Assembly (NCBI GenBank): GCA_900315305.1
Contig: OMYS01000014.1
Coordinates: 1 to 64,000, forward strand
From: an uncultured Eubacteriales bacterium
Lineage (GTDB): Bacteria > Bacillota > Clostridia > Lachnospirales > Lachnospiraceae
Reading direction: 5' to 3'
DNA length: 64,000 bases
Position 1 is the stretch's first letter. Each line of letters begins with the position of its first letter. The translations under genes were made by a program, and so were the position numbers. The notes beneath the pieces are model-generated. The model did not search any database, was not told where the DNA came from, and worked only from the letters and a program-made list of their open reading frames with translations. Shown here in pieces: positions 22,114 through 38,821 of the stretch.

Positions 22114-22236
22114 ACAGGGGGGTGACATGGAAGTCACGAAGACGTATAATATAAACTGTATGCACATTCTGGAAATTTGTCCATCCGCGCATGACGCAGT
22201 GGCCGCGGAACGGCAGATCGGATCAGGAGGAATGAT

Positions 22237-24393
22237 TTGAGCGAAAACATGAACTGGGACATACAGCCGGGCAATCCGGAAATTCCGGGAGCGCGCACGG
22301 TGAGAGGCGGAGTGAATTTTTCGTTTGCTGTCGCGGACGGCAAGAAGGCGGAGCTCGTTCTGTCCGATCCGGATGGAAGGGAAATGCTGCGGGTGCCGCT
22401 CCCGGCTGAGGAGCGGACGGGAGATGTCAGCAGCATATATATCGGGGGCCTCAACGCGGCTTCCTTTACGTATCACTATGAAATTGACGGGAGAGTCATT
22501 CCGGACCCGTATGCGGGAGGAATTGACGGAAAGGAGTGCTTCTGCGCGGACGGCTCGCAGGGCCGGACGGACGACAGGGCGCCTCTCCTTGATATGTCGG
22601 ACGTCTGCATCTACAAGCTTCACGTCAGAGGCTTTACGGAAAAGGCAAAGAAGGGCGTGCGGCACAGAGGAACCTTCCGCGGAGTCATGGAAAAGATCCC
22701 GTATATCAGGGACCTGGGCTTCACGGCTGTCGAGCTGATGCCCGTCTATGACAGAAACCCGGACCTTGGGATCACGCCGTTTGCGGAGACGGTCAAGGGT
22801 CCGGACGGGCGGGAGACCGCCGTCGCCCCGAAGAACTACTGGGGCTACGCGGACAGAAATTATTACTTTGCGCCGAAGAGAGGCTTTTCCTCGTCCCCCG
22901 ATGCGGACGGAGAATTTGCCGAGATGGTGAGAGCATTTCACCGTGAGGGCATGGAGGTCTATCTGGAAATGTATTTCCCGGAGAAGACCGACCAGCAGAC
23001 AGCAGTGATGGCCATCCACTGGTGGAAGCGGCACTTCCATGTCGACGGCTTTCATCTGATCGGGACCGGCGTGCCGATGGCTTTGCTTGTCCATGATCCG
23101 CTGCTCAGCCGGACCAAGCTGATGTTTGATCACATCGACGCGGGCTGGATCTACGGCAGCAATACGCCGCGGCACAGAAATCTGATGGAGTACAACGACT
23201 ATTTTGAGCAGACGGCGCGGTGCCTGCTCAAGGGTGATCAGGGGAAGATCCTTCCATTTGCCCAGCTGGTCCGGAGAAATCCGGGGACGCACGCCTTTGT
23301 CAACTATATGGACAATGTCAACGGCTTTACGCTGAATGACATGGTTACCTATGACTGGAAGCACAACGAGGCGAACGGCGAGAACAACTGCGACGGTCCC
23401 GCCGATAATTTCAGCTGGAACTGCGGCGTTGAGGGACCGACAAGAAAGCGGGCGGTCAGAGAGCTCCGCATGCGGCAGCTGAAAAATGCATTTCTCTATA
23501 TCTTCCTGTCCCAGGGAGTGCCTCTCATCATGGCCGGTGACGAGTGCATGAACACGCAGGGAGGCAACAACAACGCGTATTCCTCGGACAACGAGACCGG
23601 CTGGACGGACTGGAACACGGGAAAGGACGCGCTGGAGCTGCAGGCCTTTGTCAGAAAGCTGACGGCCTTTCGGAAGGCACACCCGATCTTCCGGATGCGC
23701 GGAGAGCTGCGGGGGACGGATACGATGTCCTGCGGCTATCCGGACATTTCCTTCCATGACACGAAGGCGTGGGTGTTTGAGCTCGGCAACGGGTCGAGAA
23801 CACTCGGCATGCTGCTGGACGGGGCCTACGCCGTCCGCGAGGGATATCCGGCCGATGATTTCTTCTATGTCGCCTATAACGCCCACTGGGAGAACCACTG
23901 CTTCGCACTTCCGCAGCTGCCGACAGGGTTTGCGTGGGAGATCGCCATCGATGACTCCGATCCGGGAAATGAATTCCGCTCAAGTGTGAGCGGGGAGGCT
24001 TTGAGCAACCAGCAGTTCATCGAGGTGGGGCCGCGGTCGGTGACGGTCGTGCGCGGAAGAAAGAACACCGAATTCTGGAAGAGGGCCGCGGCCCTCGCCG
24101 CCAGACGCCGCGAGGAGGCGAGACTTGCCGCAAAGCGCGCTGCCGAGGAGGCGGCCGCAAAGGAGAAGGCCCTGAAAGAGGAAGCCGCGAGAGACAAGGC
24201 CCGGAAAGAAGAGGCTGCGAAGGAAGAGGCCCGGAAAGAAGAAGCTGCGAGAGAAAGGATTCTGAAGGCGAAAGCCGCAGAAGAAAAGACCCTCAAGGCG
24301 AAAACCGCAGAAGAAAAGGTCATGAAGGCGGAAGCTGCGGAGAATACGACGGAGGCCGCAGAGGACAAAAAGATCCGCAGCACGGACCGGTGA
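22237..24393 (+). CDS. Non-catalytic GH13 (isoamylase/GlgX-like) protein with Lys/Glu/Ala-rich tail
   Basis: A 718-residue protein starting at TTG 22237 after AGGAGG. Residues 1 to about 95 resemble a CBM48 starch-binding module; then comes a shortened GH13 barrel with KLHVRGFTEKAKKGV and a late FTLNDMVTYDWKHNEANGE typical of isoamylase/GlgX. The catalytic residues are absent: the nucleophile motif GFRFD reads GFHLI (about residue 271), the acid Glu region reads KLMFDHID, and the HDG of region IV reads NVNG (about 359). Residues about 608-718 are imperfect repeats of E/A/K-rich 8- to 10-residue units, a probable long helix. It probably binds glycogen without cutting it; glgA is elsewhere at 37379. 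Confidence 0.85.
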   Translation: MSENMNWDIQPGNPEIPGARTVRGGVNFSFAVADGKKAELVLSDPDGREMLRVPLPAEERTGDVSSIYIGGLNAASFTYHYEIDGRVIPDPYAGGIDGKECFCADGSQGRTDDRAPLLDMSDVCIYKLHVRGFTEKAKKGVRHRGTFRGVMEKIPYIRDLGFTAVELMPVYDRNPDLGITPFAETVKGPDGRETAVAPKNYWGYADRNYYFAPKRGFSSSPDADGEFAEMVRAFHREGMEVYLEMYFPEKTDQQTAVMAIHWWKRHFHVDGFHLIGTGVPMALLVHDPLLSRTKLMFDHIDAGWIYGSNTPRHRNLMEYNDYFEQTARCLLKGDQGKILPFAQLVRRNPGTHAFVNYMDNVNGFTLNDMVTYDWKHNEANGENNCDGPADNFSWNCGVEGPTRKRAVRELRMRQLKNAFLYIFLSQGVPLIMAGDECMNTQGGNNNAYSSDNETGWTDWNTGKDALELQAFVRKLTAFRKAHPIFRMRGELRGTDTMSCGYPDISFHDTKAWVFELGNGSRTLGMLLDGAYAVREGYPADDFFYVAYNAHWENHCFALPQLPTGFAWEIAIDDSDPGNEFRSSVSGEALSNQQFIEVGPRSVTVVRGRKNTEFWKRAAALAARRREEARLAAKRAAEEAAAKEKALKEEAARDKARKEEAAKEEARKEEAARERILKAKAAEEKTLKAKTAEEKVMKAEAAENTTEAAEDKKIRSTDR

Positions 24394-24413: not shown

Positions 24414-24965
24414 ATGGATCCAATCGGACATTTTAGGACTATCACAAAACATCATAATCTGGTATGCTCATATTGCTTCAGAGCGGGACTTTACAAGCAG
24501 GGACTTCTGCATGACCTGAGCAAATATTCGCCGACAGAATTTCTGATCGGAGCGAAATATTATCAGGGCGTGCGGAGCCCGAACAACGCAGAGCGCGAGG
24601 CGACCGGCGTGTCGACGGCGTGGCTGCACCACAAGGGACGCAACCCGCATCACTATGAGTACTGGATTGACTACTCTGCCGACATGAAGGACGAGCGTGT
24701 CCTTAAGGGGGCGCAGATGCCCCGCAGATATGTGGCGGAGCTCATTTTCGACAGGGTGTCCGCGAGCCGCGTGTACCTCGGGGACAAATACACAGACCGG
24801 TCTCCGTATGAGTACTGGCTCAGAGGAAAACAGCGGTCGTGGTTCATTCATCCTGTGACGAAGAGACAGATCGATTTTCTTCTGCGGCTCTGGGCAGAGA
24901 AGGGAGAGAATTATACGATCAGCTACATTAAGCACGTGTTCCTGAAGGGGTGCAGGCGCTGGTGA
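24414..24965 (+). CDS. DUF5662 family protein
   Basis: A 183-residue protein with GLLHDLSKYSPTEF, then AWLHHKGRNPHHYEYWIDY and LIFDRVSASRVY. The spaced His and Asp residues (HD, HH, HHYEYW) suggest a metal-binding, HD-like helical core. Related proteins of unknown function are common in Lachnospiraceae and their phages. It starts 20 bases after the GH13 gene and its end meets the FtsW-type gene, so the three may be cotranscribed. No reaction can be assigned. Confidence 0.8.
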   Translation: MDPIGHFRTITKHHNLVCSYCFRAGLYKQGLLHDLSKYSPTEFLIGAKYYQGVRSPNNAEREATGVSTAWLHHKGRNPHHYEYWIDYSADMKDERVLKGAQMPRRYVAELIFDRVSASRVYLGDKYTDRSPYEYWLRGKQRSWFIHPVTKRQIDFLLRLWAEKGENYTISYIKHVFLKGCRRW

Positions 24966-37378: not shown

Positions 37379-38821
37379 ATGAAGAAGATTCTGTTTGTGG
37401 CTTCAGAAGGAGTTCCGTTTATAAAGACCGGCGGACTGGCGGATGTTGTCGGTTCACTGCCCAAGGCTCTTGACAAGCGCTATTTTGACTGCAGAGCCGT
37501 CCTTCCCTATTATTCCTGCATGGCGCAGAAATGGAAGGATATGCTTGAGTACAAGACAAACTTCTACATGGATTTCAACTGGAACAGCTGCTACGTCGGC
37601 ATTTTCGAGTGCGAGTACGAGGGGATCAAGTTCTATTTCATTGATAATCAGGACTATTTCACCTGCGACAAGCCGTATGCGGGTATGCCCTGGGACCTCG
37701 GGAAGTTTGCATTTTTCAGCAAGGCAGCGCTCTCGATTCTGCCTACCATCGATTTCCGTCCGGATGTCATCCACTGCCATGACTGGCAGACGGGACTGGT
37801 TCCGGTCTACCTGAATGCGGATTTCCAGAATAACGAATTTTACCGCGGCATCAAGACGGTCATGACGATTCACAACCTGAAGTTCCAGGGTATCTGGGAC
37901 ATCAAGACAATCAAGAATATCGTCGGTCTGCCGGATTATTATTTCACACCGGACAAGCTGGAATATAAGAAGGACGCAAACCTGCTTAAGGGCGGCCTGG
38001 TCTACGCGGATGCAATTACGACGGTATCCAAGACCTATGCGGAGGAGATCAAGATGCCGTACTACGGCGAGGGCCTCGACGGTCTGATGCGCGCGAGAGC
38101 GCATGACTTGCGCGGTATTGTCAACGGCATTGACTACAAGACCTTTAATCCGGCTACGGATGAAGCGATCTACAACAAATACGATGCGAGGACCTTCCGC
38201 AAAGAGAAGGTTAAGAACAAGACGGCTCTCCAGGCCGACCTCGGACTGACGGTTGATCCGGACACGATGCTGATCGGAATTGTCTCTCGTCTGACCGACC
38301 AGAAGGGCTTCGACCTGATCGCCTACGTCATGGACGAAATGTGCCAGGATGCCATCCAGTTTGCTGTTCTCGGAACAGGAGACGAGAAATATGAGAATAT
38401 GTTCCGCCATTTCGCATGGAAGTATCCGGGAAAGGTATCGGCCCAGATCTACTACAATGAGGCACTGTCTCACAAGATCTACGCGGGCTCTGACGCCTTC
38501 CTGATGCCGTCCAAATTCGAGCCCTGCGGTCTGTCTCAGCTGATGTCGCTCCGGTACGGCACAATTCCGATAGTCCGTGAGACCGGCGGTCTGAAGGACA
38601 CGGTTGAGCCTTACAATGAGTTCGAGGGAACCGGAACAGGCTTCTCGTTCCAGAACTACAATGCGCATGAGATGATGGCGACTGTCCGCTATGCGGAGAA
38701 GGTGTACTACGACAACAGACGCGAGTGGAACAAGATGATCGACCGCGCGATGGCGGCGGATTTCTCCTGGGAGGCATCCGCTCTGCAGTATCAGGAGCTC
38801 TATGACTGGCTGATCGGCTGA
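37379..38821 (+). CDS. glgA: Glycogen synthase
   Basis: GlgA extends glycogen from ADP-glucose. The 480-residue GT5 enzyme has the N-terminal KTGGLADVVGSLPKAL (KTGGL binds ADP-glucose), HCHDWQTGLVPVYL, and the C-terminal DAFLMPSKFEPCGLSQL and RETGGLKDTVEPY. GGAGG lies upstream of ATG 37379. A small inverted repeat (TCAGCAT / ATGCTGA, 37333-37354) lies in its leader. No other glg synthesis gene is next to it; the non-catalytic GH13 protein at 22237 could act on the same polymer. Confidence 0.95.
   Translation: MKKILFVASEGVPFIKTGGLADVVGSLPKALDKRYFDCRAVLPYYSCMAQKWKDMLEYKTNFYMDFNWNSCYVGIFECEYEGIKFYFIDNQDYFTCDKPYAGMPWDLGKFAFFSKAALSILPTIDFRPDVIHCHDWQTGLVPVYLNADFQNNEFYRGIKTVMTIHNLKFQGIWDIKTIKNIVGLPDYYFTPDKLEYKKDANLLKGGLVYADAITTVSKTYAEEIKMPYYGEGLDGLMRARAHDLRGIVNGIDYKTFNPATDEAIYNKYDARTFRKEKVKNKTALQADLGLTVDPDTMLIGIVSRLTDQKGFDLIAYVMDEMCQDAIQFAVLGTGDEKYENMFRHFAWKYPGKVSAQIYYNEALSHKIYAGSDAFLMPSKFEPCGLSQLMSLRYGTIPIVRETGGLKDTVEPYNEFEGTGTGFSFQNYNAHEMMATVRYAEKVYYDNRREWNKMIDRAMAADFSWEASALQYQELYDWLIG

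Follow-up and report, generated by a model that had tools for sequence, protein, structure and literature searches.

Throughout green plants and algae, a conserved isoamylase, ISA2, lacks catalytic activity; it binds glucan through a secondary site and has been proposed to shape the polymer by non-catalytic means (PMC12510319). The CBM48 of GH13_11 has been reported not to bind glucan (PMC12510319). For the bacterial GlgX of Streptomyces venezuelae, which is under allosteric c-di-GMP control, sugar-contacting residues have been described with acarbose (PMC9530166). Within the Lachnospiraceae, a 648-aa GH13 protein is annotated as glgX2 in Butyrivibrio hungatei MB2003 (PMC5716241), and a second glgX is annotated in Blautia obeum (PMC10395257). 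A literature search on pseudo-GlgX or pseudo-GH13 proteins of the Lachnospiraceae found no description of the clade reported here.

In this study, the window, that is, the whole stretch of 64,000 nucleotides analysed from an uncultured member of the Lachnospiraceae, was found to encode a GlgX-like protein, termed pseudo-GlgX. Its gene and outer domains are as follows.

22225–22230, forward strand: AGGAGG ribosome-binding site, 6 nt 5′ of the TTG start (read directly)
22237–24393, forward strand: pseudo-GlgX gene, 718 aa, TTG start, stop codon at 24391–24393 (ORF reading, homology and family membership)
22258–22542, forward strand: N-terminal CBM48-like beta-sandwich, residues 8–102 (weak Pfam CBM_48 match of 18.9 bits, cut-off 22.4; strands in the model)
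23746–24063, forward strand: C-terminal beta-sandwich domain, residues 504–609 (structure model)

The orthologue in the rumen genome RUG611 (L004), a sister species, is 90% identical and also begins with TTG, and the RUG611 record was the sole match when contigs were scanned with pseudo-GlgX. The similarity to isoamylase/GlgX claimed in the initial annotation was borne out, as the protein body matched PDB 2vnc (2.9e-61), rice ISA1 (3.1e-56) and S. venezuelae GlgX (1e-53), and the protein scored 281.7 bits on TIGR02100, the curated GlgX model, which is below the cut-off of 640.9. TIGR02100 was matched by 44/44 members of alignment A2, the cut-off being compared for the 718-aa protein alone. Pfam returned just a weak alpha-amylase match and the sub-cut-off CBM_48. 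Structure prediction, which the initial annotation had proposed as a check, returned the isoamylase/GlgX (GH13_11) fold: the AlphaFold2 model, built with 44 relatives (mean pLDDT 85.9), shows the N-terminal CBM48-like domain, the (beta/alpha)8 barrel and the C-terminal beta-sandwich of GH13_11. Its best PDB matches were rice ISA1, the ISA1–ISA2 complexes and S. venezuelae GlgX, with E values from 4e-51 to about 1e-40 and TM scores of about 0.7.

The host's own intact GlgX (G000:C77, L002), which carries the motifs DVVFNH, DGFRFD, LIAEAWD and CHDGF, and the E. coli GlgX were used as references for the active site. Alignment with them placed the following changes in pseudo-GlgX.

22966–22983, forward strand: degenerate region I, EMYFPE for DVVFNH, residues 244–249; Asp changed to Glu, Asn and His lost (alignment)
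22981–23004, forward strand: site of the missing domain-B segment (E. coli GlgX 274–313), deleted in 55/55 relatives
23044–23064, forward strand: degenerate region II, DGFHLIG, residues 270–276; Arg changed to His, nucleophile Asp changed to Ile or deleted (alignment)
23128–23130, forward strand: acid/base position, Asp298 replacing Glu (alignment)
23320–23322, forward strand: transition-state-stabiliser position, Asn362 replacing Asp (alignment)

The motifs DGFRFD, LIAEAWD and CHDGF thus read DGFHLI, LMFDHID and NVNGF, and the Ile, Asp and Asn that had been noted at the nucleophile, acid and transition-state positions proved exact against both references. No intact triad was found elsewhere in the barrel, and the losses extend to region I, the region II Arg and domain B.

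The same positions were then read residue by residue in 55 family members, about half from the window's genus and half from other genera. The substitutions are shared by the homologues only in part. The nucleophile Asp (E. coli D336), which is Ile or a gap in pseudo-GlgX, is absent from 55/55 relatives, the region I His is gone from 55/55, and the region II Arg is replaced by His in 49/55; the acid/base position (E. coli E371), however, is Glu in 19, Asp in 13 and another residue in 23, and the transition-state position (E. coli D443) is Asn in 31, Asp in 22 and Glu in 2. The third Asp survives in 22/55 relatives, most of which belong to genera other than that of the window, and was therefore probably lost more recently than the nucleophile or domain B. 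A relocated nucleophile, in the form of an Asp or Glu a few residues downstream (GDGVP), was considered and rejected, as it occurs in just 21/55 relatives and is Thr in pseudo-GlgX. The pseudoenzyme clade keeps 60 of the 151 columns that are invariant in 21 canonical GlgX. We conclude that pseudo-GlgX is almost certainly not a working GH13 hydrolase, and the alignments make the predicted catalytic death of the whole protein family well supported.

To what extent the family has spread was evaluated by a profile search of the Lachnospiraceae, which gave matches in 243/299 genomes, nearly all from different genera. Divided by E-value, these comprised 208 pseudoenzymes (≤1e-115) and 35 weaker matches that are mostly canonical GlgX-like, and the pseudoenzyme is by this measure present in about 208/299 genera of the family. 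Among genomes of the window's own genus, a protein search found a relative in 34/36, the best matches being 39–90% identical. In the tree, one branch with an SH-aLRT of 100 separates the 56 pseudoenzyme rows from the 21 canonical GlgX. Beyond the host family, no pseudoenzyme was found in 196 genomes sampled at order level or in 291 sampled at class level, and the single match among the 196 (G513, L094) is a canonical GlgX by its motifs; in a plasmid search, the ten listed records were all annotated as glgX. Judged from sequence comparison, these results show a single origin of the clade, its family-wide spread and its independence from canonical GlgX. Family members probably carry the annotation 'GlgX'. 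The glgX2 of B. hungatei and the second glgX of B. obeum, likened to pseudo-GlgX by annotation, are second GlgX-like genes in members of the host family and may belong to the clade; the 648-aa length of the former fits it.

The dN/dS between the window gene and its RUG611 orthologue was 0.053 for the body (residues 1–612) and 0.357 for the tail, compared with 0.045 for the adjoining DUF5662 gene and 0.131 for FtsW; the body is constrained like a working protein. Loss of the active site could by itself hint at a decaying pseudogene or a misassembly, but long open reading frames across hundreds of genomes, the dN/dS of 0.053, the agreement of 55/55 relatives and the confident fold refute this reading, whose probability is negligible. 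The constraint equals that of an enzyme, which would also be expected if the barrel had evolved a different catalytic machinery for some unknown reaction, and the clade has its own conserved polar residues, namely Tyr171, Lys214, Glu244, Asn348, Gln414 and Asp495. Such a new enzyme is nevertheless very unlikely, given that neither the acid position nor that of the third Asp is constant in the relatives, as described above, and that no new conserved acidic pair occurs at the old active site.

The constrained body is followed by a charged tail.

24067–24390, forward strand: E/A/K-rich tail, residues 611–718, with a predicted single helix at 611–689, not conserved (sequence and structure model)
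24148–24335, forward strand: degenerate 30-bp tandem repeats encoding 10-residue repeats of the tail (repeat analysis)

A tail of about 110 E/A/K-rich residues forming one helix had been anticipated, and 108 aa from residue 611 were found, 68% of them E, A or K; the AlphaFold2 model supports the predicted single helix over residues 611–689 (~79 residues, 53% charged, with few hydrophobics). The tails of congeners, unrelated in sequence, vary in length between almost nothing and about 200 aa, while relatives in other genera are mostly without one, so the tail is a lineage-specific, fast-evolving add-on and not a core feature. It was accordingly rejected as a defining feature of the family, being absent from most relatives, and a coupling of the tail to function is not supported, since most relatives do without it and its rate of evolution is about seven times that of the body. 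In some congeners (L019, L020, L021, L023 and L028), a long helical insertion inside the C-terminal beta-sandwich takes the place of the C-terminal tail. Charged helical segments have been gained repeatedly in the pseudo-GlgX family.

Whether the dead cleft retains sugar contacts was read from the acarbose-contacting residues of S. venezuelae GlgX, the PDB chain being offset by 3 from the published numbering, as read from the alignment. Two retained stretches carry three of these residues.

23356–23436, forward strand: retained loop WKHNEANGENNCDGPADNFSWNCGVEG, residues 374–400, with Glu382 corresponding to S. venezuelae GlgX Glu470 (alignment; PMC9530166)
23536–23589, forward strand: retained GDE..NTQGGNNNAYSSD, residues 434–451, with Asn446 and Tyr448 corresponding to Asn534 and Tyr536 (alignment; PMC9530166)

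The contacts lost are those of the catalytic site, His271, Asp342, Glu378, Trp380, His449 and Asp450 (S. venezuelae numbering), and Arg212 lies in a loop for which no alignment is possible. Those kept are Trp222, Tyr224, Glu470, Asn534 and Tyr536, which correspond to Trp202, Tyr204, Glu382, Asn446 and Tyr448 of pseudo-GlgX and are found in 55, 55, 53, 53 and 50 of the 55 relatives, respectively. This pattern would fit a protein that holds glucan chains without cutting them, and the kept residues may also serve the fold.

Canonical GlgX (E ≤ 1e-140) was detected in at least 97/299 genera when three candidates per genome were scored: 76 genera had both proteins, about 132 the pseudoenzyme alone, 21 GlgX alone and 70 neither. 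The two were associated with an odds ratio of 1.9 (p 0.02, uncorrected for kinship). These data bear on the possibility of a heteromeric debranching enzyme with pseudo-GlgX as its obligate, non-catalytic subunit, paired with canonical GlgX as ISA2 is with ISA1, the closest characterised precedent (PMC12510319). The intact GlgX in the host genome, the weak positive association and the proximity of both genes in two genera would agree with such pairing. However, no match to canonical GlgX reaches E ≤ 1e-140 in about 132 of the 208 pseudoenzyme genera, a protein search found no second match besides pseudo-GlgX in several congeners, and the extra N-terminal beta-sandwich specific to ISA2 is missing from the model. 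Because most pseudoenzyme genera lack a detected canonical GlgX, an obligate partnership is unsupported by the distribution, and we consider it quite unlikely. In the two genera with neighbouring genes, canonical GlgX and the pseudoenzyme lie a few kilobases apart, convergent in L095 and on the same strand in L096, which is possibly a trace of an ancestral duplication.

Other glycogen genes were also located. GlgA occurs in 289/299 genera, with 204/208 of those that have the pseudoenzyme and 85/91 of those that do not, and this near universality leaves hardly any information in its co-occurrence with the pseudoenzyme. The host glgA lies in the window at 37379–38821, alone between recN and recA/recX and outside any glycogen operon. 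The host genome further contains three full-length GlgB-type (G000:C76, C97 and C30) and two GlgP-type (C25 and C20) matches over the cut-off. The pseudo-GlgX gene is itself outside a glg operon, its frequent neighbours being DUF5662, xthA, ABC-F and DUF1292. In four genera (L068, L072, L075 and L081), a gene for a TraX-like membrane protein, recognised by eye, lies directly 3′ of the pseudo-GlgX gene, and in two of them it sits between that gene and DUF5662.

The neighbour in the window is the following.

24414–24965, forward strand: DUF5662 gene, 20 bp 3′ of the pseudo-GlgX gene, probably co-transcribed (locus comparison)

At 13 of the 21 loci compared, which come from many genera, the pseudo-GlgX gene is followed by a DUF5662 gene, either immediately or with one gene in between, and mostly the two overlap or lie within 40 bp; by hand count, they are within about 1 kb of each other in at least 34 genera. 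Invariant His and Asp residues (H13, H33-D34, H72-H73, H79-H80 and D113) suggest that the DUF5662 product could be a metal-binding protein. Its model (pLDDT 83.1) had no significant PDB match, the best E being 0.94, and gave no functional clue. Across genera, both proteins occurred in 176, the pseudoenzyme alone in 32, DUF5662 alone in 70 and neither in 21, an association that is not significant (p 0.14). A functional coupling to DUF5662 was therefore not retained, since the synteny is clear yet the co-occurrence is not significant and the model is uninformative. The same data concern a sensor role, in which the ligand of the dead cleft would be maltodextrin or a nucleotide, for example c-di-GMP, and the signal would be relayed to a partner, perhaps the product of the DUF5662 gene. 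The c-di-GMP control of S. venezuelae GlgX (PMC9530166), the 13/21 loci and the equal constraint on DUF5662 speak for it, whereas c-di-GMP binding is reported for Streptomyces GlgX only, the presence of the two proteins is not significantly associated, and no signalling domain is fused to pseudo-GlgX; on balance a sensor is unlikely.

The reading that we prefer, with a probability of about 0.5, is that pseudo-GlgX is a non-catalytic alpha-glucan-binding scaffold or regulator. The glycogen-binding scaffold or sensor suggested in the initial annotation appears the most plausible kind of role in view of the kept contacts, the glycogen genes and the strong selection, while its coupling to the tail is unsupported. 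Against a glucan scaffold would count the sub-cut-off Pfam CBM48 match, the reported lack of glucan binding by the CBM48 of GH13_11 (PMC12510319), a possible role of the kept residues in the fold, the position outside a glg operon and the little information in the GlgA co-occurrence. Under the scaffold or regulator reading, pseudo-GlgX is a non-catalytic protein of the cytosol with the GlgX/isoamylase (GH13_11-like) fold. Its clade lost the nucleophile, the region I His, the Arg of region II and domain B once, early in the host family, and has been under purifying selection ever since. Alpha-glucan chains may still be bound via the remaining barrel cleft, by which the protein would act on the glycogen particle as a scaffold or as a shield of branch points or, alternatively, as a recruiter or regulator of the synthase, branching enzyme or phosphorylase, working without catalysis in a mode likened to that of plant ISA2. 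The helical tail of the window species might serve as a spacer or tether. More tentatively, and at somewhat less than even odds, the host family uses a family-specific non-catalytic isoamylase-fold scaffold or regulator of the glycogen particle that is an independently evolved counterpart of ISA2.

If this is true, the GlgX-like enzyme annotated in about two thirds of the host-family genera is not a debranching enzyme. In this major family of the gut and rumen, where about 132 sampled genera have the pseudoenzyme without a detected canonical GlgX, GlgX annotations may be incorrect, as may the models of glycogen breakdown that rely on them. Plant ISA2 posed the question of why selection has preserved a dead debranching enzyme over hundreds of millions of years. 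The pseudo-GlgX clade would add a second case, apparently of independent origin, in bacteria, which allow the deletion of a single gene and a direct measurement of glycogen.

Compared with the GlgX/isoamylase/TreX enzymes (GH13_11; PDB 7u39–7u3d, 2wsk, 2vnc and 4okd), pseudo-GlgX has the same three-domain fold at 23–26% identity in structure alignments and shares with GlgX the KHNE..NGENN..DG..SWNCG.EG loop, the GDE and GNNN.Y..D motifs and the non-catalytic sugar contacts. It differs from GlgX in lacking the nucleophile Asp, the region I His, the Arg of region II and the domain-B segment, in its variable acid and third-Asp positions, in its TIGR02100 score (281.7 vs. 640.9 bits) and in forming a separate clade. 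The c-di-GMP-activated S. venezuelae GlgX likewise has the same fold, with its non-catalytic acarbose contacts largely kept in pseudo-GlgX, but is an active enzyme. With ISA2 (PDB 9j6x and 9xvi), pseudo-GlgX has in common that it is a GH13_11 paralogue whose catalytic residues were lost in one ancestor and which is kept lineage-wide by selection (PMC12510319), and the clade, being a monophyletic non-catalytic paralogue kept by selection, represents an independent, analogous case of the ISA2 type. Unlike ISA2, it is closer to ISA1/GlgX in profile search (1e-120 vs. 3e-67), its model begins with the CBM48-like domain and no extra beta-sandwich before it, and most of its genera are without a detected catalytic partner. 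By analogy, the pseudo-GlgX clade resembles ISA2 in logic, not in descent or architecture.
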